DNA from: a virus
Virus record (IMG/VR): IMGVR_UViG_3300033144_006696
Span: 59,867 to 123,866 of that record
Direction: 5' to 3' (one strand)
DNA: 64,000 nt
Notes under the pieces: model-generated
Seen by the model: the letters and a program-made list of their open reading frames with translations, nothing else
Databases searched by the model: none
What the model was told of the DNA's origin: nothing
Program-made: the position numbers and the translations under genes
Part shown: positions 11,448 through 56,531 of the stretch, one piece after another
Layout: each line of letters starts with the position of its first letter
How positions within the stretch are numbered: position 1 is the stretch's first letter

Positions 11448-12202
11448 TTAATCAGTAATTAAAATTTTATATTTCACTAAAGAATTATAAACACGATTAT
11501 CTAAAACTTCTATATATTTATTTATCATGATTTTGATTTGTTCTTCTTTTGCTTTTTTATAAACTAAAAAAGTTTTTTCAGGATTACAAAAACATCTAAG
11601 ATATTTTTGTTTTCCATTTACAGCTATTTGTGCTATAAATTTATTTGATGATTTATCAAAACAAACCCCAATAGGATATTTACCTCTTGATTTATCACAT
11701 TTAACCAGTAATAAATTAATTGATTGAGGAACAAAGGAACAAAATTCAGGACAATATATTTTATTTTCTCTTTTAATAATATCTTTATCAAGTTCCACTC
11801 TTTCATCAAGAAGTTCATAGTAATTTTTATGAAACCATTCAGCAAAATTCTGAAAATTCAACCATTCTTTACACACGAAAACATCTTGATAAGTTTGTCT
11901 TCTGTTTATTGTATATGGTTCATAACATCTTCGTAGCATATTCTGCCATGTTTGATATTTAATGGTTTTTTGTTATTTATTTTTGTTTTATATTTACCAA
12001 TCCCAAAATAACCAATTCCATAAATACTTGGAAATAAGGGATCTTTTACGTTTCCTTTTTTAAAATGATTATAATCTGTCTTTATAATATACCCAGTTTT
12101 GAATTTAACTTTAATATCTCTTGCATTATTGTATTCAACGATCTTCATTAATCCATAATGACCTTTCTTAATTTCCCCAGTTCTATCAATAAATCTACCC
12201 AT
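11448..12202 (-). pseudogene. AP2-domain homing-type gene, frameshifted
   Basis: Two frames together match the intact AP2-type gene at 29185-29940. The first covers the N-terminus ('GEIKKGHYGLMKIVEYN'), the second continues from 'MLRRCYEPY' to '...YKILITD'. The break is a single-base shift after an A6 run near 11965; in the corrected frame the join reads 'IKYQTWQNMLRRCYEP'. The family (WxxMxxRCY, EWxNFxNFxxW, CSFVPxxIN) is found as free-standing HNH/AP2-like selfish genes in phages. It follows a hairpin at 12223-12288. Confidence 0.75.
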
Positions 12203-12222
12203 AACGTACTCCAAAAATAAAA

Positions 12223-12288
12223 ATGGCAACGTATTTTATCAGGTTGCGTATATGAAAATAAATCCATATCCAATAAAATAGTTGCCAT
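12223..12288 (-). terminator. Hairpin ATGGCAAC family, copy C
   Basis: Arms ATGGCAAC...GTTGCCAT extend inward through TATTTTAT/ATAAAATA with one bulge. On the - strand it is followed by TTTTTATTTT. A near-identical hairpin with 18-bp perfect arms ends the module at 57843-57929, and a shorter version precedes the AP2 gene at 29961-30025. Probably a terminator that closes the origin-like module. Confidence 0.6.
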
Positions 12289-12370
12289 GTATATTCACAG
12301 ATTGTCCCTTGACGCAACTCAAAGTTAAGATCAATATATCATAAGTTATATAAAGAATCAAGAATATTCA

Positions 12371-12753
12371 ATATAAGCATATACTCAAAACCGGAATACT
12401 CCTCTGATCTGCAATAAATGCTCTTAATAGACTTGATAAGCTTAATGTACATTTTTCTGAATCAATCACAATTCATCAAAGTTAAGATCAATATATCACA
12501 TCTTGATAAATTTGCAAATATAATCTTTGAAATTAAACTCAATTGATCAATTTTAGCTTATTTAACGATGATAAAAGTCAAATTAGATGCAATACTCTCA
12601 TTGTTTTGTAATCAAAGCGAAATGAGCAAAGATTGATCTTGATGTGCAATGAATAATCTTGAATCTGCAAAGATCAAGGATTTTTAATTCAACAAAGAAT
12701 CTTATTGCAATCAAAGCGAAGCTCCTTTCCCAGCAAACTTGCACAAGCAAGTT
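12371..12753 (-). other. Candidate origin region, module C
   Basis: A gene-free stretch of about 380 bases. On the - strand it starts with a hairpin (AACTTGC-acaa-GCAAGTT on +, 12736-12753), then the conserved block CTGGGAAAGGAGCTTCGC. AT-rich sequence with TTGCAAT and GATCAA repeats follows, ending in the conserved motif GGAGTATTCCGGTTTTGA (within 12371-12409). The same order occurs in modules A and B. Origin function is inferred from this architecture and from the adjacent initiator-like gene. Confidence 0.55.
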
Positions 12754-12847
12754 GTATAGAGTTGTAATCTTATGTTGTTGTGTATGATGTAATCATACTT
12801 AAATAATAACTTGTTATTGTTTATCAACATAAGAGTACAGCTCTTTC

Positions 12848-12904
12848 TATAGTTAGACATCTGTGTCGCACTATATTTGTCAGAGACACAGATGTCTAAC
12901 TATA
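12848..12904. repeat. Perfect 20-bp inverted repeat, module C
   Basis: Arms TATAGTTAGACATCTGTGTC / GACACAGATGTCTAACTATA are separated by 17 bases, immediately after the stop of the initiator-like gene. No T-run follows, so it is not a simple terminator. Modules A and B carry the same arrangement with unrelated sequence, as expected for binding sites of diverged cognate proteins. Confidence 0.75.
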
Positions 12905-12909
12905 TAAGT

Positions 12910-13573
12910 TTAAATATTTATTCTTAATTTCCTGAAACGACCATCAAAATATATTTCCTCAATTAATCCTTTGTTCATAAGCTTGATTCTATTTCGTTGA
13001 ATTGTTTTAGAAACACATGAAAGCAATTCAGCAGCTCTTGTATCAGATAATCCTGTAATACCTCCCTCAGAACCATTAGAAGCTTTATTTGGTGTTGTTG
13101 AATATGCTTTATACAACATAAGTAAAACTAATTCTATCGGACTTAATTTTTCTTCATCTTTTTTTATTCTGAATTAATTCTTCAAATATATTTCTTCTCA
13201 TGGTAAATTCTCCTGTGGAATTTTTCCAGTATATGCAAGATTTCAAAGCATAGGCTCCACATAATTTTAATTCTAACAAAATATCATGATATGGAATACC
13301 ATTATTTCTGATGAATTTTTTAAACATAATATATTGGTATTCAAAATCAGCAGATATTTTTGTAATTCCATATTTTAAAATTACAGAATAATTTATTGAT
13401 TCAGTTTCACGTTCAACAATAATATTGAAATCTTTGCAGACTTCCCTTAACTCTTGTAATGGATTTTTTGTTCTGAAGAAATTTGAATCCACAAATCTAA
13501 GCTCTTTGTGGTTTTTATTTTGGATTCTTTCGTAATAGAGATCTTCTTTGGAGGGAATTTTCTTGTTAAACAT
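12910..13573 (-). pseudogene. Winged-helix initiator-like gene C, frameshifted at A7
   Basis: The ATG at 13573 opens 'MFNKKIPSKEDLYYERIQN' and the frame stops just after an AAAAAAA run near 13164. The +1 frame continues 'SPIELVLLMLYKAYSTT' and ends with a winged-helix ('AAELLSCVSKTIQRNRIKL', 'MNKGLIEEIYF'). One A fewer gives a 220-residue protein, close in size to copies A (204) and B (189). The gene has the same promoters, folded leader and downstream inverted repeat as those copies. It may be inactive, use slippage on A7, or reflect a sequence error. Confidence 0.7.
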
Positions 13574-13608
13574 AATTTTACCTTTTGCCACAAGTAGCCA
13601 TAAATGAA

Positions 13609-13674
13609 TGTGGGAAAAGAGAATGGCAAATTCTCAGTTCAATACAAGGAGCAACCCTTATATCTATCCCCACA
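13609..13674 (-). promoter_or_regulatory. Three-way-junction leader, copy C
   Basis: On the - strand, TGTGGGGA and TTCCCACA close two hairpins: ATATAAGG/CCTTGTAT (one U-G pair) and GAGAAT/ATTCTC. The TSS predicted from the TTGCTT promoter lies about 10 bases upstream. The closing stem and the GATAGAT linker are conserved with copies A and B, while the inner stems differ in sequence but keep pairing. Confidence 0.7.
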
Positions 13675-13688
13675 ATTTTGGATGACTA

Positions 13689-15775: not shown

Positions 15776-15796
15776 GGTTCTTGTATTTTTTCAATT

Positions 15797-16058
15797 TTAC
15801 CATATTTTGTACCCAATTGCATGATTACTATTTATAGACATTTTATATTTACCTATACCAAGATATCCAGTTTTATAAATACTTGGAAATAAAGGATCTT
15901 TTACATTTCCAGTTTTAAAATGATCATATCTTGCTTTTACAACTGTTCCTGTTTTGAATTTAACTTTAATGTCTCTGCAACCATTATATTCAATGATCTT
16001 CATTACACCATAATTACCATTTTTAACCTCTCCAACTTTATTTTTTTAGTTTAGCCAT
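15797..16058 (-). pseudogene. AP2-type gene, truncated and frameshifted
   Basis: The ATG after AAAAGGAAT starts 'MAKLKK' and runs into a stop after an A7 tract. The next frame reads 'KVGEVKNGNYGVMKIIEYN' and continues as the AP2-type N-terminal domain up to 'AIGYKIW', then stops. The HNH-like middle and C-terminal parts seen in the intact copy are missing. Two lesions (one-base shift and deletion) mark an older relic. Confidence 0.75.
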
Positions 16059-26344: not shown

Positions 26345-26358
26345 TCAGTCATTCAAAT

Positions 26359-26423
26359 TGTGGGAATAGATTCAGCCTTATAACCTGAATTGAAAATCGG
26401 CTTTGTTAACCGACCTTCCCACA
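26359..26423 (+). promoter_or_regulatory. Three-way-junction leader, copy A
   Basis: TGTGGGAA (26359-26366) pairs with TTCCCACA (26416-26423). Inside are ATTCAG/CTGAAT and TCGG/CCGA hairpins. Compared with copies B and C the outer stem and the AATAGAT linker are conserved, while both inner stems change on both sides and remain paired. Confidence 0.75.
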
Positions 26424-26458
26424 TCTTTTTAATGACACACCGTAACAAAGGTGAAAGT

Positions 26459-27073
26459 ATGAATCAGAAATTTAGTGATGAAATTTATGAAAAACTCCTC
26501 GAAGATCCTCCTTTAGCAAAATTATACCTTTCTGGCTATCCTGAACAAAAATCCAAAGTAAAGAAAATATTCCCAAAAGATTTTATTTGGTGGAAGAATA
26601 AAAAATTCAATAATATCAAAAAGAGATATAAACCTATTGAAGCCATAATTACTGAATTTAACAGTAAACCTAATAGATTATCTCACACTAAAGCTCTTAT
26701 AGAATGTGAAGGAATGGATTTAAAGCATTATGTCTTTATAAAAAATAAGAATAAGAGTAAAAGAGATAAAAGTAATCAATACAAACATCCAGCATTGTTA
26801 AAATTAAACTGTAAGGTGATGATTGCTGAAAAACTGGGCATTTCTATTTATTCAATAAAAGAATATATTGCAATGCTTGTCCGGTGCGGCATATTAAGAG
26901 TCACACATCTTGGAAATGGAAAAATATATCTTTCATCAGGTTATTGGCAATTTTATCCATGCGAAGACAAAACAACAAGATATAAAGTTCAACCATACAT
27001 GAATGAAAAAATCGGAAAAAACCTTCTTGATCCAGACAAAGCTTATCTTAGAAAACCAAAATTAAAATTTTAA
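26459..27073 (+). CDS. Winged-helix initiator-like protein A
   Basis: 204 residues from the ATG after AAAGGTGAAAGT. The N-terminal 25 residues ('IYEKLLEDPPLAKLYLSGY') are shared with protein B and the 113-residue relative. A basic middle follows, then a winged helix with recognition helix 'LGISIYSIKEYIAMLVRCG' and wing 'THLGNGKIYLSSGYW'. It stands opposite to the surrounding genes, with its own promoters, a folded leader, a terminator and a cognate-looking inverted-repeat array. A replication initiator (Rep) or autoregulatory DNA-binding protein is inferred; no named family is recognised. Confidence 0.7.
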   Translation: MNQKFSDEIYEKLLEDPPLAKLYLSGYPEQKSKVKKIFPKDFIWWKNKKFNNIKKRYKPIEAIITEFNSKPNRLSHTKALIECEGMDLKHYVFIKNKNKSKRDKSNQYKHPALLKLNCKVMIAEKLGISIYSIKEYIAMLVRCGILRVTHLGNGKIYLSSGYWQFYPCEDKTTRYKVQPYMNEKIGKNLLDPDKAYLRKPKLKF

Positions 27074-27075: not shown

Positions 27076-27116
27076 AAAGGGAATATTCAAACAAACTATC
27101 TTTGAATATTCCCTTT
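27076..27116 (+). terminator. Terminator of initiator-like gene A
   Basis: Perfect 16-bp arms AAAGGGAATATTCAAA / TTTGAATATTCCCTTT with a 9-base loop, followed by TTTTA, 3 bases after the stop codon. Confidence 0.85.
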
Positions 27117-27148
27117 TTTATAAAATTGAAATGTATTACGATGTAATT

Positions 27149-27175
27149 TCATGGGTGTGTCGGACACACCCATGA
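27149..27175. repeat. Perfect palindrome, module A binding-site candidate
   Basis: TCATGGGTGTGTC, one base, GACACACCCATGA. The half-site TCATGGGTGTG reappears twice in the next inverted repeat (27187-27248). It has no T-run and is not the gene terminator, so an iteron/operator role is likely. Confidence 0.75.
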
Positions 27176-27186
27176 TTATTCCCTAA

Positions 27187-27248
27187 AACACACCCATGAT
27201 TTTCTAAGAAGTGCGTCAATGCTGGATGTTGAAAATCATGGGTGTGTT
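27187..27248. repeat. 18-bp inverted repeat, module A
   Basis: AACACACCCATGATTTTC and GAAAATCATGGGTGTGTT are exact reverse complements, 26 bases apart. Together with the palindrome at 27149 they give four copies of the same half-site within 100 bp. Confidence 0.75.
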
Positions 27249-27472
27249 GAAGCATTTATACATTTCTTTCATCTCTTTAATGATTTCAATAAGTTACAAG
27301 GATTTTCAAAACTACTTTTTGAAGTCTCCCTATTAAAACCTACATACTTACTGTATATATATAGAATACTTCATATTTTATTTTAATTTGTTAATACTCC
27401 TTTGGAGCTAAGACGTTACACATCTTCTTTATTATCAAATTAAAAAAAAGATAAAGTATTACGCGTTGTTCC

Positions 27473-27700
27473 AACGCTGGGGAAAGAGGCTTCGCCTTGG
27501 TTGCAAGAGCTTAATCCTATTGCATATCATTACTCATTGCAAATTCATGAATATCATTGCACAACAAGATCAATTCTTGTTCATTGCAGAGCATTTCAGA
27601 AATATCCTATATATTGCTATTCAAGATTATCATTGCAATTCTAAGAACATCTTATTGCACATCAGGGGAGTATTCCGGTTTTGAACATATGCTTATATTA
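27473..27700 (+). other. Candidate origin region, module A
   Basis: No gene is seen here. It opens with hairpin GCGTTG-ttc-CAACGC (27473-27487), followed by TGGGGAAAGAGGCTTCGCC. Then seven ATTGC(A/T) repeats occur at 27519, 27536, 27556, 27583, 27613, 27632 and 27654, with CAAGATCAATTCTTG between them. It ends with GGAGTATTCCGGTTTTGA and ATATGCTTATATT. About 65 bp around CAAGATCAATTCTTG is nearly identical in module B. The stretch 27249-27472 before it is AT-rich without clear features. Confidence 0.55.
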
Positions 27701-27890
27701 ATACTAAACCACGTCCAATTTTATATTTGTGTTTTGGTCTACTGTATTCTAAATCAGATATTTTACGATCTATTTCTCTATTTTTCTTTGCATCTTCACA
27801 ATTACACTCAAAGTAATTTGTCATTTCATCCCAATGCTCTTTCTTTTCTTGACCACAAAAAAAGCATGTACTGCTAAAATCGTTTTCCAT
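27693..27890 (-). CDS. Small zinc-binding protein
   Basis: 65 residues: 'CFFCGQEKKEHWDE' and 'FECNCEDAKK' provide four cysteines. Such short Cys4 proteins are common in phages. The 3' end overlaps the conserved terminal motif of module A by a few bases. Function unknown. Confidence 0.6.
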   Translation of the reverse strand: MENDFSSTCFFCGQEKKEHWDEMTNYFECNCEDAKKNREIDRKISDLEYSRPKHKYKIGRGLVLI

Positions 27891-29184: not shown

Positions 29185-29940
29185 TTAATCTATAATTTCA
29201 ACTTCATATTTCATCAAAGAATCATAAACTCTGACATTCAAAACTTTTCTATATTTGTTTGCCATTATTTTAATCTGTTTTTCTTTTTCAATTTTATAAG
29301 CATTGAAAGCTTTTTTCGGAGTAGAAAATAATCCAAGGTGTTTTTGTTTTCCATTAATAGCCACTTTTGCTATATATTTATTTGATGGTTTATGAAAGTA
29401 TGCCCCAATAGGATATTTACCTCTTGAATTATCCCCCTTAATTAATAAACAATTAATTGAGTGTGGTACAAAAGAACAATTTTTTGAATTATAATGTTTA
29501 TTTCCTCTTTTTATTATATCTTTATTCAAATCTACTTTTTCATCAAGGAGTTCATAATGATTTTTATTATACCATTCTGCAAAGTTTTGAAAATTCAGCC
29601 ATTCATCACATATCGTTGCATTTTGATAAGTTAAATTTTTATTTATTATATAAGGATCATAACATCTTTGAATCATATTATACCATGTTTCATATTCAAT
29701 AGTCATTTTACAATTTATTTTTGCTTTATATTTACCAATTCCAAGATAACCAGTCTCATAAACAATGGGAAATAATGGATCTTTTACTTCACCATTTTTA
29801 AAATTATTGTATTGAGTTTTTATAATACTTCCAGTTTTAAATTGAACTTTGATATCCATACAACCGTTATATTTAATGATTTCCATTAAACCACAACTAC
29901 CTTCCCTAATTTCACCTATACGATCAATAAATGTTACCAT
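29185..29940 (-). CDS. AP2-domain HNH-like homing-type protein, intact copy
   Basis: About 251 residues from 'MVTFIDRIGEI'; the longer frame upstream crosses a hairpin. The N-terminal domain ('CGLMEIIKYN', 'DIKVQFKTG') occurs in phage AP2-type proteins. The middle 'WYNMIQRCYDPY', 'WLNFQNFAEWY' and 'CSFVPHSIN' form an HNH-like part, and the C-terminal 'PIGAYFHKPSNKY' region is AP2-like. Five decayed relatives are spread across the window. These are free-standing selfish endonuclease-type genes in phages; activity is not proven. Confidence 0.8.
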   Translation of the reverse strand: MVTFIDRIGEIREGSCGLMEIIKYNGCMDIKVQFKTGSIIKTQYNNFKNGEVKDPLFPIVYETGYLGIGKYKAKINCKMTIEYETWYNMIQRCYDPYIINKNLTYQNATICDEWLNFQNFAEWYNKNHYELLDEKVDLNKDIIKRGNKHYNSKNCSFVPHSINCLLIKGDNSRGKYPIGAYFHKPSNKYIAKVAINGKQKHLGLFSTPKKAFNAYKIEKEKQIKIMANKYRKVLNVRVYDSLMKYEVEIID

Positions 29941-29960
29941 TTTAATTCCCCAAAATAAAA

Positions 29961-30025
29961 ATGGCAGTAAAGTAAATGGGGTGATATATATCAATAAATT
30001 GATATCCCATAAACAGAACTGCCAT
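29961..30025 (-). terminator. Hairpin ATGGCAGT family upstream of AP2 gene
   Basis: Arms ATGGCAGT/ACTGCCAT with an inner ATGGG...CCCAT and GATAT repeats. On the - strand it is followed by TTTTTATTTTGGGG and then the AP2 start. Related hairpins occur at 12223-12288 and 57843-57929. Probably a terminator of the upstream transcript or a mobile-gene boundary. Confidence 0.55.
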
Positions 30026-35930: not shown

Positions 35931-37940
35931 TTACCTCAACTTTAATGATTTACACCAAAAATCAATATCTGAAAGAATTGCTTTAAAATTATACTTTTCT
36001 GCAATCCTGATTAATCCTTTCTTTTTCAATCTATCAGGGCGAATAGAATATTTTGGTGTGCCTCTGAATGGTAATATTACCAATGCTTTATTACGATTTA
36101 TTACGTCCTTACCGCGTCGACTTTCAATTGCTTTATAAGCTTGTGTTGTTGGTTTCATTTTTCCAGTAATGTAATTGAGCGCACCTTTTTCGGCCACGTG
36201 TCTTTGTTTTTTTGTTGGATCTGATTGTGGGATTGGGACACCTTTGACATTATCAGAAACGCAATTACTACTCCATGCAACAGTACCATTTCTTCTGATC
36301 AATATTGTATGATGTGGTTCTGTAGTAATGTCATATACAAAGTCATTAAAAGGTATTTTTGTTATTGTTTTTTTCATGATATTTGCATTTTTTGATTTAT
36401 TAATTTTTAAATGATAATTTGTAGAACTTACTCCAGATTTTCCCCTAATATTCCATTCTCTTCCATCTCTTTTTATAATTTTTGTAGCATGACCAAGTTT
36501 AATTGCAATTTCTTGAACATCATCAATTAATTTTTTACTACTGGAAAAATAAGAAATTCTTTCAGTTATTCCTTCTTTTCCAAAAACATTATACTCTTCT
36601 ATTGAAACACAGCCATCACCAGATATTAATGAATTAAATAAAATTTGCAATTGTTCCCGTGATAAATTAAGAAATTCTCTTGGTATATATTTTTCTTTTG
36701 CTTTTCCTAATTGATTTAAATATTCAGCCAATTGAACATTATCAGTTCTCCATCCTTTTTTACCTCTACACCAATTCCAAGGGGTTGCAAATAATATTGG
36801 TGTAAAGAAATCTAATTTTCGTTTTTTACATGCTGATATTCCTATTGTCCCTATATTACCATTTCTATTTTTAGAAACATGACCATCAGCAAGATATATG
36901 CCCAAAAAAGATAACCATATATCCATATCTATTTCAACGGGGTCAAATTTTCTTGTTGATATAAATTTTCCTCTTATTTTACAATTAGTTTCCCATTGGA
37001 TAGTGATTTCAGGAAGTAAAAATTTATCTTTTTTTATTCCATTCCAATCTGATGTGAGTGGTATTGTAAAATTTTTATATTTAACAATTTCTTGAATCTC
37101 TTTAAAGGTAATTATACTTTTTGATTTTTTTGTTGGATATGCTTGTGTAGTACTGCCAAAGAATTTATGATTTGGAGTTACAACAAAATCTATTAATCTT
37201 CCTTTTATCTTATACATTTCTCCTTTATAAATATATTTAATTCGTTTTGTTATTTTTTCATAAGAAGCATTTCTTGAAAGAGGGTCCATACTATATACTT
37301 TGTCTGATTTTTTAATACTTGGAAATTGAATCCATCCTCTATCAGTTAAAATTTCTGTTTTTTTATCAAAGCATCCGCCAATTGCCTTAATCCTTTTCCA
37401 CATCTTTGGTTCAATGTTGTATTTATTTTCAAAGTCAGTTATGGAAAAGAATGCATCAGTTTTTGCATTTAAAATGCAGATATTGTTGGTTATAATTTGA
37501 TATAGATCATGGTCAGTTGTACATATTACTATTTGATTATCTGAATATGATTTGCAAATTCTACCAATAATGTCGTCTGATTCAAAACCATCTTCACCAA
37601 ACATATTCATACACCCAAGAGTAGGTAATACATAATTAATTATTTCATCAAATTGAGGGTATGCAAGAGCATCAAGACGTTTTTGTTCTTCTGTCTTATT
37701 CACATAGCTTCTATTCTCTTTATACTGAGCGTATATTTGCTTCCTGAGTGATGTTTTGCTATCAAGACCCCATACAATTACATTTGCTTTTGATTTCTTT
37801 ATCAGAGCGTTTAATTTAAACAAAAATCCATAAATAATGAAAGTCTTTTCATCAGCTTTTGTTAATCTTCCTTTTCCAATACTGTATTTTAATTGATGCA
37901 ATAATGAAAGAGTATCAATTAATAAAATTCGTTTAAACAT
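35931..37940 (-). CDS. 5'-3' exonuclease/flap endonuclease with LAGLIDADG intein
   Basis: 669 residues. The N-extein has the PIN-like FEN core: D9 in 'ILLIDTLSL', 'DDIIGRIC' and 'CTTDHDLYQII' metal ligands. The intein (residues 190-559) interrupts the H3TH metal/K+ loop between 'KAIGG' and 'CVSDNVKGVP'. After splicing the protein is about 299 residues, similar to T4 RNase H or PolA 5' nuclease. It would remove RNA primers and flaps. The last domain is basic. Confidence 0.9.
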   Translation of the reverse strand: MFKRILLIDTLSLLHQLKYSIGKGRLTKADEKTFIIYGFLFKLNALIKKSKANVIVWGLDSKTSLRKQIYAQYKENRSYVNKTEEQKRLDALAYPQFDEIINYVLPTLGCMNMFGEDGFESDDIIGRICKSYSDNQIVICTTDHDLYQIITNNICILNAKTDAFFSITDFENKYNIEPKMWKRIKAIGGCFDKKTEILTDRGWIQFPSIKKSDKVYSMDPLSRNASYEKITKRIKYIYKGEMYKIKGRLIDFVVTPNHKFFGSTTQAYPTKKSKSIITFKEIQEIVKYKNFTIPLTSDWNGIKKDKFLLPEITIQWETNCKIRGKFISTRKFDPVEIDMDIWLSFLGIYLADGHVSKNRNGNIGTIGISACKKRKLDFFTPILFATPWNWCRGKKGWRTDNVQLAEYLNQLGKAKEKYIPREFLNLSREQLQILFNSLISGDGCVSIEEYNVFGKEGITERISYFSSSKKLIDDVQEIAIKLGHATKIIKRDGREWNIRGKSGVSSTNYHLKINKSKNANIMKKTITKIPFNDFVYDITTEPHHTILIRRNGTVAWSSNCVSDNVKGVPIPQSDPTKKQRHVAEKGALNYITGKMKPTTQAYKAIESRRGKDVINRNKALVILPFRGTPKYSIRPDRLKKKGLIRIAEKYNFKAILSDIDFWCKSLKLR
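36264..37373 (-). mobile_element. Intein with LAGLIDADG endonuclease in FEN
   Basis: 370 residues. Block A 'CFDKKTEILTDRGW', block B 'VVTPNHKFFG', DOD motifs 'LGIYLADGHV' and 'LISGDGCVS' (two LAGLIDADG helices), block F 'FVYDITTEPHHTIL', block G 'VAWSSN' followed by Cys. The penultimate residue is Ser instead of His. The insertion point is the most conserved DNA-binding loop of the host enzyme, as usual for inteins. Confidence 0.9.
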
Positions 37941-41897: not shown

Positions 41898-42067
41898 ACC
41901 ATATAACCTTCAAGTTCTTCTTTCTCTACAAACCAAGGCTCAATTTCCACTACTAAATCATCATAGTCATTAATTACTGATTTTGGTATCCAAACATCTC
42001 TCTCATCAAAATAAAATAAAACCGCATCATCTGTTTCATGACTAACACCATCATGGCAAATTTCCAT
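41894..42067 (-). CDS. Small acidic protein
   Basis: 57 residues ('MEICHDGVSHETDDAVLFYF', 'VVEIEPWFVEKEELEGYMV'). Its start overlaps the clamp loader stop (TAATG) and its stop overlaps the mediator start (ATGA), so it is a coupled member of the replication operon. Function unknown. Confidence 0.6.
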   Translation of the reverse strand: MEICHDGVSHETDDAVLFYFDERDVWIPKSVINDYDDLVVEIEPWFVEKEELEGYMV

Positions 42068-44169
42068 TATTCACCCCCAAACACAGATTTATAACAAGCT
42101 AAAGTTAATCCTGCTTTCCCAGAATCAAAGAAATTATTCTCAAAATTTTCCATCATGAAAAATATATTGTCATCACCATTATTAAGCATGATAGAATTCA
42201 TGTACATTAATATTGGCCTTCTTGCTGATTCACCATCACCTTTAAAATCTTTTAGGATTTTTTTAATCTTTGCCCATTTTGTTTTTGGAGGCATATTGTA
42301 ATGTGAAAGAGTTCTGCAAATTTCAATAACCTCAGTTTCACTGGTTCCTGCTGATTTAAGGGTATTAATGGCACGTTCAGAATCATCCATATCAATTACT
42401 TGATCAAGAAGTTTCAATGCTTGCCCTGCTGAACCATCTGCAAGCTCAATGATGTGATCTCTTACATCCATTGAAATACATTCGCGTTTTTCTTTCTTTA
42501 AAATCATTCTGAAAAGTTTTTGAAGATCAGAACTTTTCAGAAATTCAAGTTCATACGTGTGACATCTACGTTTTAAAGTGGATTTTAACGCTTCTGGATT
42601 CGTTGTACACAAAATCCAATGCACATATGCAGGAGGTTCTTCAAGTGCCTTAAGTAAACTTTCCTGTGCAATTTTTGTTATAGAGTGACAATTGTGAACC
42701 ATATTTCCATTTGCAATATAAGAATGATTTTCTTTTACTTGCAAATCATAGAACTCTACAAAGCCTTGATCTCTTTCTTTATGTCCAATAATACTTGAGA
42801 AAGATTCATCATTACTTCCTCGTTTGTAAATCTCAACACTTTCCACCCTTTCCATCGAAGAAGAGACTCTTTCTTTTTGTCCAGTTTTCGTCTCTGAATA
42901 GAGTTGTGTCCCTTTCCGTCTATTTCTATTGCAATCTTTAATTTTGGATTTCCCAAATCCACTTTGTAAGAAGTTGGAATTCTTTTTTTGCGGCACCAAA
43001 CTTCCCGTTGTTTCATAGGCAAATGATCTGCTGTTTTCACTGCAACTTCTGATTGCCAAGCTAATGCAGCCATTAATAATTTCTGTGGTTCTGTCAACTG
43101 ACCATTCCCACCACGCTTTCCTTTCCAAACATGAAGAGTTCCATTTACTCTTTTTGTTTCTATTGCCTTCTCTTTCACACCAGAAAGATTCATCGGATTG
43201 TTTTCCTTCATACGTTCTGATGATTTTTGTGCAAATTCCTTGCCTTCTTTTGTTTGATAAAAATCTAAAGACTTTTTGCTTATTTTTTCCCTTGTCTCTT
43301 TTGATCGTCCAGTTTTCTTTACACAACTTTTTGCATATTTCCCTGAACAACTTTTTGAGCAAAATTTTCGTGTCTTTCGATCTGTGGTAAATATCTTTTT
43401 GCACCATAAACAACTTTTTGAATCTAAAACACTTTTTTCTTTTAATGATTCTCTGTAAAATGCTGAACAACTGTTTGAACAAAACTTTCTGCTTTTGTTC
43501 TTCGGAAAAAATTCCTTTTCGCAAAATTGACATATCTTTTTGTAAGTCATTTTGTACCTCGCATAGTGAACTTGTGTTAATCATAGGTTCACTATACCTT
43601 ACAAGAAGTATGTTTGTCAAGTCTTTTGCTTTAATCCAATTACCATCAAGATAATACTCCTGATCTTCAGAACAAAATGTACTTGACCCGTCAGATTTAT
43701 TGATTTTAATAACCCTACTTAAAGGAACTTTGTTAATAAATACTTTCTCAACAATATCAGTTCCATTTAAGTTAAAAACTGCGTCATTAACTTTAATTAA
43801 ATCAATTCTCTTTTGTCCTTCTGAAGTTGGTATTGAAGTACAAGCACTAAAGCACTCATCTAATAGAATAACTTTTTTAGTTCCTGATAAAGGTGCAAAC
43901 TTCATTGATTGAATTAATCCCCTTACCCCATCAATACCTCTATCATCAGCAGCATTTAATTCTTTAAAATCAGCATCAGAACATTTTAAAGCTCTTTTGA
44001 TAACTCTTCCCATACTGGTTTTCCCGGTCCCAGATCCCCCAGTGAATAAAAATGCAGCAGGAGGATTATCTCTTTTTAAAACAGCAGAGAGACTTTTTTT
44101 AACATCATCATTTCCAATAAAAGTTTTAAATGATTTTGGTCTGTAAAATGTTGCTAATCCTGCCATCAC
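42067..44169 (-). CDS. Clamp loader subunit (DnaX/gp44-like AAA+) with intein
   Basis: 700 residues. The N-extein has Walker A 'GGSGTGKTS' (44-52) and ends at Walker B 'VILLDE'. The intein covers residues 106-493, and the C-extein resumes with 'CHSITKIAQESLLKALEEPP', sensor 1 'CTTNP' and the arginine/zinc-less lid domain. The mature AAA+ protein of about 312 residues loads the sliding clamp (48700-49698). The open frame continues unbroken across an out-of-frame endonuclease gene inside the intein (42756-43550). Confidence 0.9.
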   Translation of the reverse strand: MMAGLATFYRPKSFKTFIGNDDVKKSLSAVLKRDNPPAAFLFTGGSGTGKTSMGRVIKRALKCSDADFKELNAADDRGIDGVRGLIQSMKFAPLSGTKKVILLDECFSACTSIPTSEGQKRIDLIKVNDAVFNLNGTDIVEKVFINKVPLSRVIKINKSDGSSTFCSEDQEYYLDGNWIKAKDLTNILLVRYSEPMINTSSLCEVQNDLQKDMSILRKGIFSEEQKQKVLFKQLFSILQRIIKRKKCFRFKKLFMVQKDIYHRSKDTKILLKKLFREICKKLCKENWTIKRDKGKNKQKVFRFLSNKRRQGICTKIIRTYEGKQSDESFWCEREGNRNKKSKWNSSCLERKAWWEWSVDRTTEIINGCISLAIRSCSENSRSFAYETTGSLVPQKKNSNFLQSGFGKSKIKDCNRNRRKGTQLYSETKTGQKERVSSSMERVESVEIYKRGSNDESFSSIIGHKERDQGFVEFYDLQVKENHSYIANGNMVHNCHSITKIAQESLLKALEEPPAYVHWILCTTNPEALKSTLKRRCHTYELEFLKSSDLQKLFRMILKKEKRECISMDVRDHIIELADGSAGQALKLLDQVIDMDDSERAINTLKSAGTSETEVIEICRTLSHYNMPPKTKWAKIKKILKDFKGDGESARRPILMYMNSIMLNNGDDNIFFMMENFENNFFDSGKAGLTLACYKSVFGGE
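42691..43854 (-). mobile_element. Intein in clamp loader carrying out-of-frame endonuclease gene
   Basis: 388 residues in the host frame, inserted in the Walker B DE|C site. Block A 'CFSACTSIPT', block B-like 'CSEDQEYYLDGNWIKAKDL' (Gln where His is usual), block F 'FYDLQVKENHSYI', block G 'MVHN' followed by Cys. Between them the host-frame translation is a long basic sequence without family resemblance. It overlaps the endonuclease gene in another frame. The split between intein halves occurs exactly at the gene ends. Confidence 0.85.
42756..43550 (-). CDS. Vsr/EDxHD-type homing endonuclease nested out of frame in intein
   Basis: 264 residues in a frame shifted from the clamp loader. It has GAGGT five bases before its ATG. 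Two or three zinc knuckles ('CQFCEKEFFPKNKSRKFC', 'CLWCKKIF...KFCSKSC'), a NUMOD-like linker and a C-terminal Vsr/DUF559-like nuclease ('YKVDLGNPKLKIAIEIDGKG', then H, and 'WKVLRFTNEEV'). This family is known as homing endonucleases in phage introns and fractured split-intein genes. Its stop lies at the start of the intein C-terminal block. Confidence 0.9.
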   Translation of the reverse strand: MTYKKICQFCEKEFFPKNKSRKFCSNSCSAFYRESLKEKSVLDSKSCLWCKKIFTTDRKTRKFCSKSCSGKYAKSCVKKTGRSKETREKISKKSLDFYQTKEGKEFAQKSSERMKENNPMNLSGVKEKAIETKRVNGTLHVWKGKRGGNGQLTEPQKLLMAALAWQSEVAVKTADHLPMKQREVWCRKKRIPTSYKVDLGNPKLKIAIEIDGKGHNSIQRRKLDKKKESLLRWKGWKVLRFTNEEVMMNLSQVLLDIKKEIKAL

Positions 44170-44920: not shown

Positions 44921-47900
44921 TTAATACATTTTATTTATTTGATCAATATCTATCTCCTCCATAAAGGCAAAATTACCTCCTTCCTCTTTTAATTTTGATA
45001 ATTCAAATTCCATTTCAATAGGAACAATTAACCATTTGAACTTATTTTTAAGATTTTTAACAATATCATTTACACCATTTAAAATAAATTTGATTTCTTC
45101 TTTATGTAGGTTAAAAATTATTGAATCGTGCACTTGGCCAGTTATTTTGGTTTTACATTTATTTTTTCTGAGGAATTTTTCAACTTCGATCAAAGTAAAT
45201 AATAATAAATGAAAACTGGTAGATTGTATAGGAAAATTGGTGCATTGCTTCTTATTCATGTATCCAGTAAATCTGAATCCAAAATATGTTTCAATAAAAC
45301 CATACCTTTGATAAGACTCAACTATGTTCTCTTTCCATTCTGTATAAACTGGAAATCTTTCTTTCCACATTTTACTTTCAATATTTTTACAATGTTCAAG
45401 GAATGAACCAGGAGTTGGTTCATATTTTATCATTTCCCCAAGTTCATATATTCCTTGACCTTCAAGCCAATGTTTTACTGTTTCACCATTTGGAAGTGTT
45501 AATCCAGCTTCTACTACATTTTCCCATAAATTCGGAGCACATGACCCAAACCAATCACCATAAAATTGAGCAAATGTCCAATTATTCTTGGCATAAAATC
45601 GAATATTTTTGATCATTTTTATTTGAGCTTTGCTATACCCAGGATAATGTTTATTCATTAGTTTAAGTGGTAATTTAAACAATTCCATTGCCAGATCACG
45701 ATGCATGTCCCCCTGAGTTACGTCAAAAATAAACGTAGGGTCTTTATGATATGCTGCCGAAGTTATTATTTCAGCACCAGAAAAATCACACTCACACAAA
45801 ACACAATTTTTTGAAGGAACTATGCCTTTTCGTACTAATGCTTTAATTTCGGGATTTCTGGCAGGAAGATTTTGGTGATTTGGCTTACTGGATGAATTAT
45901 GCACACAAATTTCATTTACAAAAAAGTTATGACAATCCTCAACTTCAATATCATAAACATCAGTTTTTTTACCTATCCACTCAATCTTAGTTATTATATG
46001 ATTTCCAGGTTTAAACTCTCCGAATTGATTTCTCCATTTCCTCTTTGAATCAATTCCATAATAATCATATAATTCAAGTAATCTATAATGGTTATGACCA
46101 AGAATATCTTTAACTTTTGCCCTTCCAAGTTTTGATAAGTCTTCAAGTCTTTGTTTTGATATAAATTTATCATGTTTATCAAAACATAAGTTTATTTTTT
46201 TCCAATTAATTTTATTAATTACAAGATATTTTTTGAATGTACTAAAATCTATTGAAAATTTATCTGCTGTTTTTTTTGGTTTGCCAGCACATTCCATTAA
46301 CATACAAACACACTGATCTTTTGATAAATTAAATGATCGTGGATTATCTTTGCCTCTTTTTATTGTGTGATCATATCTTCCTTCTTTCCATCCTTTCTTA
46401 ACTGCTTTAATATTATTTATTCTTGACTTCTTTGAACATATAGTATCTTTACTGTGTAACTTTGCATGACTTGATTTTGTATGTTTTTCAAGATTTAATG
46501 GATTATGATTAAAATGATTTTTATCTTTATGGTGAACAATGTCACCACATGTCAATTCACCTATAAAATTTTCATAAATTAATCTATGCTCTAATACGCC
46601 CTTTCCACCTTGTAAATGTCCTGTAAAATTTAATTTATCTCCACTTCTTTTACATGCTAAAGCCCTACAATTTCCATCCTTTGCTTTACTTTTTTTATAG
46701 TGTTGTTTTTTTAAGAGGTTTTGAGCTTCTACATACTTACCATTTATTAATCTAACTTTATGCTCAGGTGTGCAATCAAAATGTCCATGACCACCTTTTC
46801 TATAATAATAAACACGAATTATTTCCCTGTGTCCTGTTTTTCCTTGCCATAATACTTTTTTAATTGCAGGATTTAATTCATTATCAAAACAATATACATA
46901 ATCACCAACTTTAATGTCTTTTATTGGGATTCCTTCTGGATGTAATTCAAAATCTTTCGCCACAAGAACTTTTTCATATTCAGCAATACAGGAACGGTAA
47001 CTTACTGGAATATGAAGATCCCAAAACGGATGAATAATACCTTTATAAACTTCTCTTGCAAATTGTGCAAGATAGGTTCCTTTTGCTTTCTCAAGCTTTT
47101 TCATTTGAATAAGTTTATCAACAAATGGCAAATTTAAAGATTCAAGAGTCAATGCATCTGTTTTGTAATTATTATTTGCTGTATATACTGGAGTTTTACC
47201 AAGCACTTCATAAAAAAGTTTGCCAAGATCAGTATTTGATGTAATGTTTATTTCTTTTCCAATTTGTTCTTTAAATTTTTTTGCTTCTCTACCTTCAGTT
47301 AATTCCTTCTTTGTTATGTCAATTCTTTCTTTTAATTCAACATTTGTCTTTTTGTAATACTCAGTATTAACAGTGATACCATTGAGTTGTATAGTTCCCA
47401 TTGTACGGATTCCACGCATAAAGAACTTAAAAGCATTATGTAATTTATCCATTTTTGAAAAATAAGCTTTTTGATCATTATAAAGCATGTATGTGAAAAT
47501 ACAATCAAGACCATTATAAACCAAAAGATCTTTTAAAGGTACTTTCTCTACTGTATTAAACTCTGTGCCTTTTTTTGATTTTAGAAAAGGTGATATTGAG
47601 TCATCGTAAGGGCGAACACCATATCGTACAAATGCTTGAAACTTCAAACCTATTGCAGCAGCTCTATTATCAGTGCATTTTTGACCAATCATCGTACAAT
47701 GAATTACATTTCTTATACGAGTTCCAATTTGAATGGCTGACCACATGTCCTCAAATTTTGCATTGTGCGCTATCTTTTCAATATCTTTATGTGCAAGAAT
47801 TTCTTTCCATAATGCTTTGATTTCACTTAATTCACTTTTTGTCCAGAAAGAATTAAAATCAAATGGAAATGCATATGCTTTTTTTGCTGATATTGCAAGA

Positions 47901-48685
47901 GCTATCGTAACTATTTTGTGTCCATTACGATATGGTTTCAAACCAGTTGTCTCATAATCAAAAGCAATTTTTTGTTTTCTTTTTATGACTCGTTTTAAGA
48001 GTGATTTAACGTCGATAAAGTTTGTAAGAGTGACAACATACTTCTCAAAGTTTGTTTGCTTCTTATACGTCTTATTTAAACATGTATTAATGAGTTTTAG
48101 ATCTCGTTTAAACGTAGAATGTAGATTTTTGTCTTTATCTTTTTTAACAAGTTCCCATGGATGAAATAATGGAAGTACATAACACTTAAATTTTTCATCT
48201 GGAATTTGAAATGCACGCCAACGCATTATTTTACGATTGGAAAAGTTTTCACCAAATACAGATGTTATTGCAATACTCCCAAGTAGTACAATAAGTTTTG
48301 GTTTAAGTTTAAGAATTGTCCTTTGTATCATTGGATAACAACAAGAAATTTCTTTATGTGAAGGGATTCTATCATGTGGAGTTCTACAATTTACAGCTCC
48401 AATTTTCCAACAATCCTTATGCAGTGAAATTTTTATATGTCTTAGTTCTTTTTTTAGGAAATCACCATTTTCACCAACAAGATGAATCCCAAACTCATCT
48501 TCTTCTTGTCTTGGAGCTTCCCCAATTATCAGAATCCTTTTTACACCTTCACCAGTAACATCTAATTTAGGATGCAAACAATTTTTATATAATCCACATT
48601 TTCCACAATCAGGAGTTAATTGGTTTATATCAATTTTTTTCTTTGTTTTTTTAACTAATTCACTTTTGGTAAAAAATCCAACCAC
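44921..48685 (-). CDS. UDG-DNA polymerase I fusion with HNH intein
   Basis: 1254 residues. Residues 24-205 form a family 4-like uracil-DNA glycosylase domain: FeS-type 'CGKCGLYKNC', 'GEAPRQEEDEFG', 'LLGSIA' and 'LFHPWE'. A 3'-5' exonuclease follows (D243xE in 'FDYETTGL'), then the PolA domain: motif A 'CDFSGAEIITSAAYH', motif B around 'FYAKNNWTFAQFYG', motif C 'GQVHDSIIF'. The intein (566-930) lies just before 'SSSKPNHQNLPA'. The mature replicative enzyme has about 889 residues. No 5' nuclease domain is fused; it is encoded at 35931-37940. Confidence 0.9.
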   Translation of the reverse strand: MVGFFTKSELVKKTKKKIDINQLTPDCGKCGLYKNCLHPKLDVTGEGVKRILIIGEAPRQEEDEFGIHLVGENGDFLKKELRHIKISLHKDCWKIGAVNCRTPHDRIPSHKEISCCYPMIQRTILKLKPKLIVLLGSIAITSVFGENFSNRKIMRWRAFQIPDEKFKCYVLPLFHPWELVKKDKDKNLHSTFKRDLKLINTCLNKTYKKQTNFEKYVVTLTNFIDVKSLLKRVIKRKQKIAFDYETTGLKPYRNGHKIVTIALAISAKKAYAFPFDFNSFWTKSELSEIKALWKEILAHKDIEKIAHNAKFEDMWSAIQIGTRIRNVIHCTMIGQKCTDNRAAAIGLKFQAFVRYGVRPYDDSISPFLKSKKGTEFNTVEKVPLKDLLVYNGLDCIFTYMLYNDQKAYFSKMDKLHNAFKFFMRGIRTMGTIQLNGITVNTEYYKKTNVELKERIDITKKELTEGREAKKFKEQIGKEINITSNTDLGKLFYEVLGKTPVYTANNNYKTDALTLESLNLPFVDKLIQMKKLEKAKGTYLAQFAREVYKGIIHPFWDLHIPVSYRSCIAEYEKVLVAKDFELHPEGIPIKDIKVGDYVYCFDNELNPAIKKVLWQGKTGHREIIRVYYYRKGGHGHFDCTPEHKVRLINGKYVEAQNLLKKQHYKKSKAKDGNCRALACKRSGDKLNFTGHLQGGKGVLEHRLIYENFIGELTCGDIVHHKDKNHFNHNPLNLEKHTKSSHAKLHSKDTICSKKSRINNIKAVKKGWKEGRYDHTIKRGKDNPRSFNLSKDQCVCMLMECAGKPKKTADKFSIDFSTFKKYLVINKINWKKINLCFDKHDKFISKQRLEDLSKLGRAKVKDILGHNHYRLLELYDYYGIDSKRKWRNQFGEFKPGNHIITKIEWIGKKTDVYDIEVEDCHNFFVNEICVHNSSSKPNHQNLPARNPEIKALVRKGIVPSKNCVLCECDFSGAEIITSAAYHKDPTFIFDVTQGDMHRDLAMELFKLPLKLMNKHYPGYSKAQIKMIKNIRFYAKNNWTFAQFYGDWFGSCAPNLWENVVEAGLTLPNGETVKHWLEGQGIYELGEMIKYEPTPGSFLEHCKNIESKMWKERFPVYTEWKENIVESYQRYGFIETYFGFRFTGYMNKKQCTNFPIQSTSFHLLLFTLIEVEKFLRKNKCKTKITGQVHDSIIFNLHKEEIKFILNGVNDIVKNLKNKFKWLIVPIEMEFELSKLKEEGGNFAFMEEIDIDQINKMY
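45896..46990 (-). mobile_element. Intein with HNH endonuclease in DNA polymerase
   Basis: 365 residues. It starts at C566 ('CIAEYEKVLVAKDF'), with 'IPIKDIKVGDYVY' and block B 'GHFDCTPEHKVRLI'. An HNH segment ('HRLIYENFIGELTCGDIVHH', 'HFNHNPLNLEKH') lies in the middle. Block F 'DVYDIEVEDCHNFFV' and block G 'CVHN' precede Ser+1. It interrupts the template-binding 'SSSKPN' region, a known polymerase insertion site. Confidence 0.9.
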
Positions 48686-52311: not shown

Positions 52312-52545
52312 TTTAAAACTCCTTCTTGTGGTTTGTTATTACTTATTGAATTTACAATACATTATTCATTTAAAAACATAATAAGAATTTAATAATTTTT
52401 AAATAAAAAGTCAATGAAAAAATGTTTAAAAAATAATAATAATTGAAAATAATAATGTTCATTTTTGTAAGTGCTTTAATTTGTATGATTTTTCACCAAT
52501 TATTATTTATTCAATTCTTCATAAAAATCCCTATAATCTTCTTTT

Positions 52546-53292
52546 TTAATCAGTAATTAAAACTCTATAATTCATCAGTGAATTATAGATACATGCATCC
52601 AAAACTGCTTTGTACTTATTTGTCATTATTTTAATATGTTTTTCTTTTTCAATTTTATAAACTTTGAAAGTTCCTCCAGGAGTAGAAAAATACCCAATAT
52701 GTTTACCGCATAAATAAGAGACATATCTATTTGTACTTTTCTGCAAGTTTACTCCAATAGGATATTTACCTCTGGATTTATTTCTTTTAGTTAATAATTT
52801 ATTAATTGATTAGGGAACAAAAGAACAAAACTCAGGAGAATAGACTTTATTACCTTTTCTGATAATATCTTTATCAAGATTTACTTCTTCATCTAAAAGT
52901 TCATAATAATTATTTTGGAACCATTCAGCAAAGTTTTGGAAATTCAACCATTTTTCACAAACTATAACATTTTGGTATGTTAAATTTTTATTTATATAAT
53001 ATAGATCATAACAATGTCTAAGCATATTATGCCATGCATTATACCAAATTGTATTTTTACCATTTATTGATAGTTTATATTTTCCTACCCCAAAATAACC
53101 AATCCCAAAAACATTTGGAAATAAAGGATCTTTTACATTTCCAGTTTTAAAATGATTATACTGTGTTCTTACAATTGGACCAGTTTTAAATTTAACTTTA
53201 ATATCATTTGAGCCATTGTATTCAATAATTTTCATTAAGCCACTATTGCCTTTTCTGATTTCGCCTGTACGATATTTTATTTGTATTACCAT
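52546..53292 (-). pseudogene. AP2-type gene interrupted by a nonsense codon
   Basis: N-terminal part 52810-53292 ends '...PEFCSFVP' at a TAA where intact relatives have CAA (FVPQSIN). The frame resumes in phase 'SINKLLTKRNKSRGKYPIG' and runs to 'NYRVLITD'. One C-to-T change explains it. The gene begins inside the 3' end of an RHH gene, suggesting insertion there. The flank 52312-52545 is AT-rich without clear features. Confidence 0.8.
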
Positions 53293-53443
53293 TTTTCAGT
53301 ACTCTTGATTCTTGTTCTTTCTTAATTACTCTTTTCATATATTGGTATAATATATCTGACATTGTTGTTTTTTTCATAAGTGCAATAGTTTTGAACTGCA
53401 AATGTTCTTCTTCAGATACAGCAAAAATTAAATTCTTTTTCAT
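53243..53443 (-). CDS. Ribbon-helix-helix protein with displaced C-terminus
   Basis: 66 residues. The RHH fold is 'FAVSEEEHLQFKTIALMKKT' and 'TMSDILYQYMKRVIKKEQ'. The last 15 residues (after 'ESRVLKNGN') are read from the 5' end of the AP2-type gene in another frame, so the original end has probably been replaced by insertion of that gene. TTGACA upstream suggests its own promoter. Confidence 0.65.
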   Translation of the reverse strand: MKKNLIFAVSEEEHLQFKTIALMKKTTMSDILYQYMKRVIKKEQESRVLKNGNTNKISYRRNQKRQ

Positions 53444-55018: not shown

Positions 55019-55030
55019 ATTTTAGATCCT

Positions 55031-55816
55031 TTAAATATTTTCTAATAAATCTAAAATGAACTCACGGCCCTTCTCGGTCCAAACTGTAGAATGGGAGGTT
55101 TGTTTACTTACTTGTCTACCATTATTAATGATATGAGTTCGTGTATTAACCAATCCTCTATCTTGGTATTGTTGTTTAAGCAACCATTGACCACTTTGTT
55201 TAAATTGAACTCCAGACTGTTCAAGAACTGTATTTAAGGAATGAGCCGTCATTTCGACCTGTTTCGCAATCTGAGTTATTGTAAAATCTGATTTTGAATC
55301 CAGAACTTTATCATAATATTTGACTTTTGGGCGATCTTTTTTGATTTTGCGTGTTTGCTTTTTTACTACTTTTTTCTGTTTTTCAATTTCTTCAAGAGCA
55401 AGAACCTTTTGCTTTTCTGAAATGACTAACTGTTCTAATGCTTCGATATAATTAGTGGGCAATGATTCTTTTTTGTTATAATCTGTAAATGCTCTCATAA
55501 TCTGAATTGATCTTTTCACAGCAATGTCAGATCTAAGAATTGAAGAGAGTTGATTTGCTCCATATTGTGTAAAAATGTATGTAAGTGCTGGGGATTGTTG
55601 ACTTATCGCATTTTGCGATAACAGAAATTTCTGTTCAATATCAGTGACTTGGAACATAAAATCATCAGGGAATTTATTTTTATTTCTTTTTACTGCTTCA
55701 TTTAATCGTCCAGTTTTAACTTGATAAATCTTTGCAAGATCTTTTGCAAACATTCCGTCAGGTCTTCCCGGTAAACTTATGATTAAAGATTGGATTCGTT
55801 CAATTATTGCTTTCAT
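55031..55816 (-). CDS. ORF6N plus KilAC-type antirepressor
   Basis: 261 residues. The ORF6N domain (residues 1-110) shows 'PDGMFAKDLAKIYQVKTGRL', 'FPDDFMFQVT' and 'AISQQSPALTYIFTQYGANQ'. The shared linker 'NYIEALEQLVISEKQK' is identical to that in the AntA protein, and the C-terminal KilAC part ('FTITQIAKQVEMTAHSLNTV') ends 'TEKGREFILDLL'. It is coupled to an upstream RHH gene by overlap. Confidence 0.85.
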   Translation of the reverse strand: MKAIIERIQSLIISLPGRPDGMFAKDLAKIYQVKTGRLNEAVKRNKNKFPDDFMFQVTDIEQKFLLSQNAISQQSPALTYIFTQYGANQLSSILRSDIAVKRSIQIMRAFTDYNKKESLPTNYIEALEQLVISEKQKVLALEEIEKQKKVVKKQTRKIKKDRPKVKYYDKVLDSKSDFTITQIAKQVEMTAHSLNTVLEQSGVQFKQSGQWLLKQQYQDRGLVNTRTHIINNGRQVSKQTSHSTVWTEKGREFILDLLENI

Positions 55817-55958
55817 TTTCTTTCTCCTTTTCTTTAATAAAATCCTTCATCATTTCAATAATTATATGAGTCATTGGTTTATCCTCTTTCAATGCAGCAA
55901 ATTTAAAGTTTCTGTGCAGCTCTCTTGGTATTAAGATAGTCATGGAAAATTTTTGCAT
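55800..55958 (-). CDS. Ribbon-helix-helix repressor upstream of antirepressor
   Basis: 52 residues: 'KFSMTILIPRELHRNFKFAA' and 'DKPMTHIIIEMMKDF' form the RHH fold. Its stop overlaps the antirepressor by 17 bases and the RBS AAAGGAG precedes it. A repressor/antirepressor pair in one transcript is implied. Confidence 0.7.
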   Translation of the reverse strand: MQKFSMTILIPRELHRNFKFAALKEDKPMTHIIIEMMKDFIKEKEKENESNN

Positions 55959-55993
55959 TTTTGCTCCTTTATTTTTTTTGATTAAACTATTAT

Positions 55994-56023
55994 TTTATAC
56001 AATAAAAAGTTATATATTGTCAA
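55994..56023 (-). promoter_or_regulatory. RHH-antirepressor promoter TTGACA-18-TATAAA
   Basis: On the - strand, divergent from the + strand promoter at 56056. Confidence 0.6.
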
Positions 56024-56055
56024 GCTTTTTTTAATATATTTTTATTAAGTTTTTA

Positions 56056-56084
56056 TTGACTTTTTCACTTGATTATCATAAGAT
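56056..56084 (+). promoter_or_regulatory. Promoter TTGACT-17-TAAGAT, module B/D
   Basis: Nearly identical in -35 and spacer to the promoter at 26264-26292. Start expected near 56091, just before the folded leader D. Confidence 0.65.
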
Positions 56085-56112
56085 GATTTCTCAATAAATT
56101 ACTTCATGATTT

Positions 56113-56164
56113 TGATAGCAAAGGGTCCATGGCCCTGGGAGGATTGGTCTCCTCCCTGCTATCA
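56113..56164 (+). promoter_or_regulatory. Three-way-junction leader, copy D
   Basis: TGATAGCA (56113-56120) pairs with TGCTATCA (56157-56164), enclosing AGGG/CCCT and GGGAGGA/TCCTCCC hairpins with almost no unpaired bases. All three stems differ in sequence from copies A-C yet keep the same architecture. Much richer in GC than its surroundings. Confidence 0.75.
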
Positions 56165-56200
56165 TAATTTTCAATGACCACCATTAACCAAGGTGATATT

Positions 56201-56515
56201 ATGTTTAATCTGGATATTTATGCAGAACTTCTTGAGAAAAATCCCTCTTTAGCAAAAACATACTTTGAAGACCATTCACAACCACAAGATTTACCTACTC
56301 ATAAAGTACCTTCATTACTAAATCCTGATATTATTGAGACATTGGCTAAAAAATTTGGATGTTCAGTTGAAGAATTAACTGAAAATTTTGATTTTTTAGT
56401 TTGTGTTGAAGAATTAGAAAAATATGATATTGATGGAGTAATCCATTATGCAGTAAATGAAGATTCTGATTTTCATAATTATGTACGTGATACAGGTGAA
56501 TATCCTAAGTTATAG
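56201..56515 (+). CDS. Initiator-related small protein without winged helix
   Basis: 104 residues from the ATG after AAGGTGATATT. The first 25 residues ('LDIYAELLEKNPSLAKTYF') match proteins A and B, but the rest is acidic ('VEELTENFDFLVCVEELEKY', 'HNYVRDTGEYPKL') and lacks the winged helix. It may modulate initiator B by occupying a shared interaction surface. It is followed by the promoter and leader of gene B. Confidence 0.65.
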   Translation: MFNLDIYAELLEKNPSLAKTYFEDHSQPQDLPTHKVPSLLNPDIIETLAKKFGCSVEELTENFDFLVCVEELEKYDIDGVIHYAVNEDSDFHNYVRDTGEYPKL

Positions 56516-56531
56516 TAATTAAATAAACTTC

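Follow-up and report, generated by a model that had tools for sequence, protein, structure and literature searches.

The 64-kb window, that is, the whole stretch of DNA analysed here, covers bases 59867 to 123866 of a virus record of 123,866 bp, and positions below are those of the window unless another record is named. The phage genome is probably circular and complete, since the last 114 bases of the record repeat its first 114, and its exact closure is uncertain because this end repeat sits in a tandem array. Family and sibling matches indicate that a tailed phage is encoded, with a major capsid protein, a DnaB-like helicase and a RecA-like gene among others. A noncoding hairpin followed by a short block is carried three times in the 124-kb genome, in modules A and B on the plus strand and in module C on the minus strand. 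Antirepressor genes of the KilAC/Bro/AntA type adjoin modules A and B and lie near C. Related HNH endonuclease genes or fragments (about 75% DNA identity) occur at 11448-12229, 15794-16018, 29185-29994 and 52533-53295. Extra segments whose starts and ends look intein-like, and which are candidate inteins, are apparent in the DNA polymerase, clamp-loader-like and exonuclease-like genes (44921-48685, 42067-44169 and 35931-37940, respectively).

The gene of module A (26456-27073, plus strand) encodes about 205 amino acids with an HTH-like region that weakly matches FaeA/HTH_36; that of module B (56671-57243, plus strand; about 190 amino acids) is related to it at 36-39% identity. In the gene region of module C (12911-13574, minus strand) the frame that comes first shows no relation to the proteins of A and B. 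Beyond an A7 run there is a second frame that looks HTH-like but is out of register with the first, so that this region may be either a broken gene or a frameshift. No replication-initiator family matched the module proteins above noise, the only matches being generic, sub-threshold HTH ones, and Pfam and PHROGs scans gave no match to RepL. The AlphaFold models have mean pLDDT values of 34 and 37, too low for a fold search, and a sequence search of the PDB gave nothing beyond chance, TPR-like matches in the N-terminal part. Relatives of these proteins were found neither in viral contigs, phages, plasmids and 21 related viral records, nor in 124 genomes of the phylum to which the metagenome-assembled genome (MAG) described below belongs. 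A terminator-like hairpin follows the module A gene (approximately 27076-27120). Beyond the end boxes of B (57843-57929) and C (12223-12289) there are long inverted repeats (ATGGCAAC..TTATTTTATC), similar to each other and with a T-run on the sense side of the module, which are probably terminators.

The noncoding element and its three copies

In module A the hairpin GCGTTG-ttc-CAACGC (6-bp stem, TTC loop) occupies 27463-27477 of the plus strand; the earlier note had seen the hairpin correctly, but the start it gave, 27473, falls within the 3' arm. The block GGGGAAAGAGGCTTCGCC lies at 27479-27496 (plus strand), matches exactly and includes GCTTCGC, which reads GCGAAGC on the other strand. Module B has the hairpin GCGTTGC-aaa-GCAACGC (57549-57565, plus strand; 7-bp stem, AAA loop) and the block GGGGAGAGGGGCTTCGCT at 57567-57584 (plus strand), with three mismatches to A. 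Module C has AACTTGC-ttgt-GCAAGTT (12736-12753, minus strand; 7-bp stem, TTGT loop) and TGGGAAAGGAGCTTCGCT at 12715-12732 (minus strand), with four mismatches to A and a hairpin-to-block gap 2 nt longer. The blocks had been described as nearly identical, which holds for B (15 of 18 positions); for C (14 of 18) the wording is too strong, given the four mismatches and the longer gap. When the A block was sought with up to three mismatches, two matches (A and B) were obtained against 0.01 expected in shuffles. A covariance model of hairpin plus block picks out three sites of the genome and no more (E values of 5e-14 to 2e-12); the best match after them, at E 0.08, is the antisense of B. This result gives the copy number and is not independent support, because the model was built from the same three copies.

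That the three modules carry hairpins with different, paired stems can be read directly from the sequence. In C, three pairs of this first hairpin (stem c) are altered on both sides, which are compensatory changes, and 95% of cells are paired; when the partners were slid by 1-3 columns as a control, 33-47% of cells were paired over two helices. The stem covariation is thus modest evidence from three sequences, with clean sliding controls. Hairpins with at least 6 pairs and a 3-4 nt loop occur about once per kb in the window, so that finding one at the same place ahead of the block in every copy is unlikely to be chance. The small hairpin that the earlier note saw in the block (GGCTTCGCC) does form on the sense strand, with five pairs only if G-U is allowed, but it is weak as DNA. 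GCTTCGC is invariant in all three elements, and its complement GCGAAGC, which as DNA forms an extraordinarily stable minihairpin (PMC4686876), has four further copies in the genome outside the modules.

Alignment and self-comparison show that hairpin and block form only the left margin of a longer noncoding element, about 235 nt in all, which extends about 200 nt past the block to GGAGTATTCCGGTTTTGA..CTTATATT. The parts after the block are better conserved than the hairpin and block themselves, A and B being 97% identical in 27561-27620. They hold an iteron-like array with the consensus TYATTGCANATC, of which loose copies, all in one orientation, number 6 in A, 6 in B and 5 in C. The six YATTGCA copies of A (27501-27660, plus strand) are spaced by 17, 20, 27, 49 and 22; the six of B (57609-57740, plus strand), two of them degenerate, by 20, 27, 36, 14 and 21; and the five of C (12405-12712, minus strand) form a wider, interrupted array. 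The spacing is irregular. An invariant terminal box, GGAGTATTCCGGTTTTGA..CATATGCTTATATT at 27667-27703 in A (plus strand), closes the element and recurs as GGAGTATTCCGGTTTTGA.. at 57742-57780 in B (plus strand) and at 12365-12402 in C (minus strand); the distance from block to end box differs by about 140 nt in C. TTGCA occurs as often as 7 times per 170 nt; in 20 simulated windows of 64 kb the maximum was 3-4. Eight of the nine strict YATTGCA sites of the genome fall in the three modules, and their YATTGCA clusters are the densest among about 900 kb examined. Short repeats of one orientation thus cluster near a candidate initiator gene and are rare elsewhere, as in iteron replicons. Just before the open helicase frame of a helicase-gene relative there are three 22-nt CCCCTTAAGG-type repeats (L076:12-77), a possible counterpart of the array.

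The noncoding character claimed for the hairpin and block is borne out: frame analysis of the three copies of the element gave no protein in common, the similar stretches lie in several frames of either strand, and the frame changes from copy to copy, so that a coding origin was rejected. Between A and B the proteins are 39% identical and the array region 83-97%; that the noncoding ends outlast the gene between them is as expected if specificity parts diverge and the sites of a shared factor stay.

Between gene and hairpin each module has palindromes of its own. Module A has four half-sites ACACACCCATGA, as a tight pair and a spaced pair, at 27149-27250; module B four half-sites TTTAAGATACGCCC at 57256-57365; and module C one spaced palindrome with two half-sites TAGTTAGACATCTGTGTC at 12845-12907. 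The half-sites adjoin the gene of their own module, and no exact site is found elsewhere in the genome. The segments that follow, 27365-27461 in A, 57447-57548 in B and 12754-12844 in C, each fold as a closing stem with two hairpins, an architecture kept in all three copies without conservation of sequence. Together with hairpin c, the three folds have z-scores of -2.8, -2.7 and -4.2 on the sense strand and of -5.0, -3.6 and -6.0 on the antisense strand. The AT content is 76% in A, 71% in B and 74% in C (window mean 69%, 95th percentile 76.5%); AT-richness is unexceptional in B and C and apparent only in A.

A candidate leader RNA before the module genes

Each module gene is preceded by a 5' leader predicted to fold as an RNA three-way junction (26347-26436 in A and 56563-56653 in B, plus strand; 13597-13687 in C, minus strand). 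Six of its pairs are altered on both sides between copies, 97% of cells are paired, and a promoter-like TTGCTT-17/18-TAnnCT precedes all three leaders. The fold, GGGAUAG..UGAAA..UUUCCC, recurs ahead of a homing-endonuclease-like gene that is free-standing and lies upstream of the capsid gene, both in this phage (L018:14089-14163; E 5.5e-4) and in two related records (L031:6773-6844 and L033:8306-8377; E about 3e-5 per genome and 5e-4 when all searched loci are counted); the weaker of these matches depend on a short calibration of E-values. The matches have the junction letters AUAG and UGAAA in common. Nothing in Rfam reached the gathering cut-off with the leader, the A leader gave nothing at E up to 5, and a pattern scan for the leader returned three chance matches. 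The fold is a candidate new phage leader RNA, and with six compensatory pairs, three further places and no Rfam match it is the best-supported new item of the analysis. A fourth leader-like three-way junction of different sequence (56095-56180, z -4.3) precedes the gene at 56174-56515, whose protein has N-terminal and HTH-like stretches in common with the module proteins.

The probable main replication site and the possible role of the modules

A lambda-O-type initiator gene lies at 62813-64000 and continues at the record start (L017:1-435), thus crossing the record ends. It has an HTH_36 domain and in-gene 24-bp iterons at 63818-63959, and the end repeat of the record falls within this iteron array. 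In lambda the origin is located within gene O (PMC6022878), and the O-like gene with its iterons is probably the main origin of this phage. Relatives were found through the capsid protein, among them a contig of 102,562 bp, collinear with the present phage and also binned in a Cloacimonadota MAG; this single MAG points weakly to Cloacimonadota as a possible host. In the relative the DnaB helicase gene is immediately followed or preceded by an initiator gene that has HTH_36 at its N-terminal end and three tandem 24-nt in-gene repeats, the arrangement of lambda O. All three modules are missing from the relative, and module B sits, in this phage, in a 7.8-kb insertion (55019-62812) between the helicase and initiator genes, which are neighbours in the relative (G031:C25). 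No KilAC gene was found among the 29 related records. On these comparisons the modules are accessory.

The pattern of lambda O, with iterons inside an O-like gene beside a helicase or loader gene, is absent at modules A-C; the in-gene iterons are found at 62.8-64.0 kb, and the DnaB adjacency in the collinear relative. Nor is the element conserved with the phage replication genes, for the relative keeps the O-like and DnaB genes without it. The idea that the modules are the main origin of the family was therefore rejected. Searches further afield found no other copy of the element: a degenerate block pattern had no match in viral contigs, the covariance model gave nothing convincing in the 29 related viral records (many of them fragments), exact-pattern scans for the terminal box in viral and genome contigs returned only chance matches in unrelated contexts, and tblastn and blastn in phage and plasmid records gave no match. 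The check that had been proposed, a search for the block in other genomes, was thus negative in the viral contigs and the 29 related records.

The element could act as RNA or as DNA. In the two-hairpin segment, strand-specific G-U pairs favour an antisense transcript by 10 to 2; those in the block's small hairpin point to the sense strand, and a clean antisense-RNA reading was set aside for this reason. Promoter and terminator scans around the element showed no excess over shuffles and no consistent promoter, and Rfam covariance models, introns included, matched no known structured RNA. Because the strand signals conflict, the spacing changes in C and the repeats all run in one direction, we argue for a putative protein-bound DNA site, possibly with hairpins when single-stranded. 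The palindromes, the AT-rich segment of A, the array and GCGAAGC together make the kind of anatomy seen in replication origins.

Our first, tentative choice is therefore that the hairpin and block belong to the cis-acting, protein-binding or origin half of an accessory, plasmid-type replicon-like cassette carried three times. The HTH-type protein of each cassette would bind its private palindromes just 3' of its gene, and a second factor, of phage or host, common to the three cassettes would bind the TYATTGCANATC array. The segment between might then open or extrude, exposing the hairpin and the GCGAAGC minihairpin, which, once single-stranded, could mark where replication proteins are loaded. 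Between copies, palindromes and protein would have diverged so as to avoid cross-reaction, the array and end box being kept the same. We infer the binding, the opening and any replication from the arrangement of these parts. This reading is ranked first because private protein-palindrome pairs with a common iteron-like core fit the diversification of replicons, and because P1 shows that one phage can hold two, the lytic one being kilA-repL (PMC9948254), so that several replicons per phage have a precedent. Against it, the phage already has a lambda-O-like initiator and the collinear relative manages without the modules; the module proteins fit no initiator family; AT-richness is unexceptional in B and C; the leader fold stands before a homing-endonuclease-like gene as well, suggesting a general role in gene regulation; and three replicons besides a main origin would be odd in one genome. 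If the reading is right, specificity (protein and palindromes) has diverged around a kept core three times in one virus, and replicon compatibility could be tested within a single genome. A stronger form, that the modules are three mutually orthogonal accessory replicons besides the lambda-O-type origin, each with its own initiator and palindromes, a common iteron-hairpin core and a leader RNA setting initiator dosage, is doubtful; it would mean a natural set of compatible origins evolving within a single genome.

It is possible instead, and nearly as likely as an origin-like replicon, that each module is a regulatory cassette switched by the antirepressor, in which a repressor-like HTH protein regulates its own cassette, with the palindromes as operators, and the element acts as a structured RNA, be it a 3' UTR, a small RNA of its own or an antisense transcript running toward the gene. 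The neighbouring antirepressor genes, the clearly structured leader predicted for each gene, the terminator-like hairpin after the A gene and the inverted repeats with T-runs beyond the B and C end boxes all agree with this, as do the antisense bias of the G-U pairs and a fold that all copies share almost without common sequence in its first part. The small hairpin of the block, however, pairs well only as sense RNA, opposite to that bias; promoter and terminator scans stay at shuffle level and Rfam offers no family; the difference of about 140 nt in C is unlike one compact RNA; and an RNA fold leaves the same-orientation array unexplained. No computed result decisively separates these two explanations. 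If the regulatory one is true, the modules represent a phage control cassette not described before, whose structured leader RNA is also found ahead of a homing-endonuclease-like gene in related phages.

Three other explanations are less likely than either. The leader and terminal box might be the ends of a non-autonomous mobile element with exchangeable cargo, perhaps helped by HNH proteins, given the conserved ends, the unrelated cargo of C, the absence of the modules from the relative, the insertion that holds B and the several related HNH genes in the same regions; this is unlikely, as neither a target duplication nor shared terminal repeats were found and the HNH genes are not at fixed places relative to the modules. 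The earlier note had proposed a single-strand initiation or primer RNA site, and as a site for the phage's own main replication this is very improbable. The hairpins, the minihairpin sequence and the noncoding conservation speak for it, and the noncoding, paired, conserved and HTH-gene-linked parts with an origin-like anatomy do stand; yet the element is not found in related phage records, is absent from the relative that keeps the O-like/DnaB pair, and the phage has a separate O-type initiator. Nothing found speaks for the primer RNA itself: the strand signals conflict, and no consistent, shared promoter was found for the segment. That the element is a functionless leftover of recent duplication, as its having been found in only one genome might suggest, is the least probable of all: selection is suggested by the compensatory changes and by an array that persists even where the gene beside it has diverged to 39% or given way to another.

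Comparison with known systems

The invariant 7-mer on one strand of the three elements is exactly that of the d(GCGAAGC) minihairpin (PMC4686876). This is a chemical property only, and four further copies of the 7-mer in the genome lie outside the modules.

In the immI-type immunity of P1 and P7 an antirepressor is controlled by an antisense RNA. The modules resemble it in having an antirepressor beside a regulatory gene and a predicted structured RNA, and differ in the lack of any Rfam match in the window, the three paralogous copies and the iteron-like array.

With lambda O and ori-lambda the likeness lies in the O-like HTH_36 gene with in-gene 24-bp iterons at 62.8-64.0 kb and the record start, found also in the relative; modules A-C lie elsewhere, with iteron-like sites outside the gene and without a helicase partner of their own. 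The P1 lytic replicon (kilA-repL, oriL; PMC9948254) likewise has a KilA/antirepressor-type gene near the gene proposed as initiator and is a second replicon in one phage genome, as the modules would be if they replicate. Unlike kilA-repL, the two genes here are divergent and not in one operon, the element lies 3' of the gene and not inside it, and no RepL match was obtained.

An iteron-type plasmid origin has a Rep gene beside Rep-binding direct repeats and an AT-rich opening region. The modules differ from it in that the array is common to all three and private palindromes would carry the specificity, in that the module protein lies outside the known Rep families, and in the irregular spacing of the repeats. 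They are like it in that an HTH-like gene stands beside short same-orientation repeats and, clearly in A alone, an AT-rich segment, and in that the specificity parts diverge between module copies.
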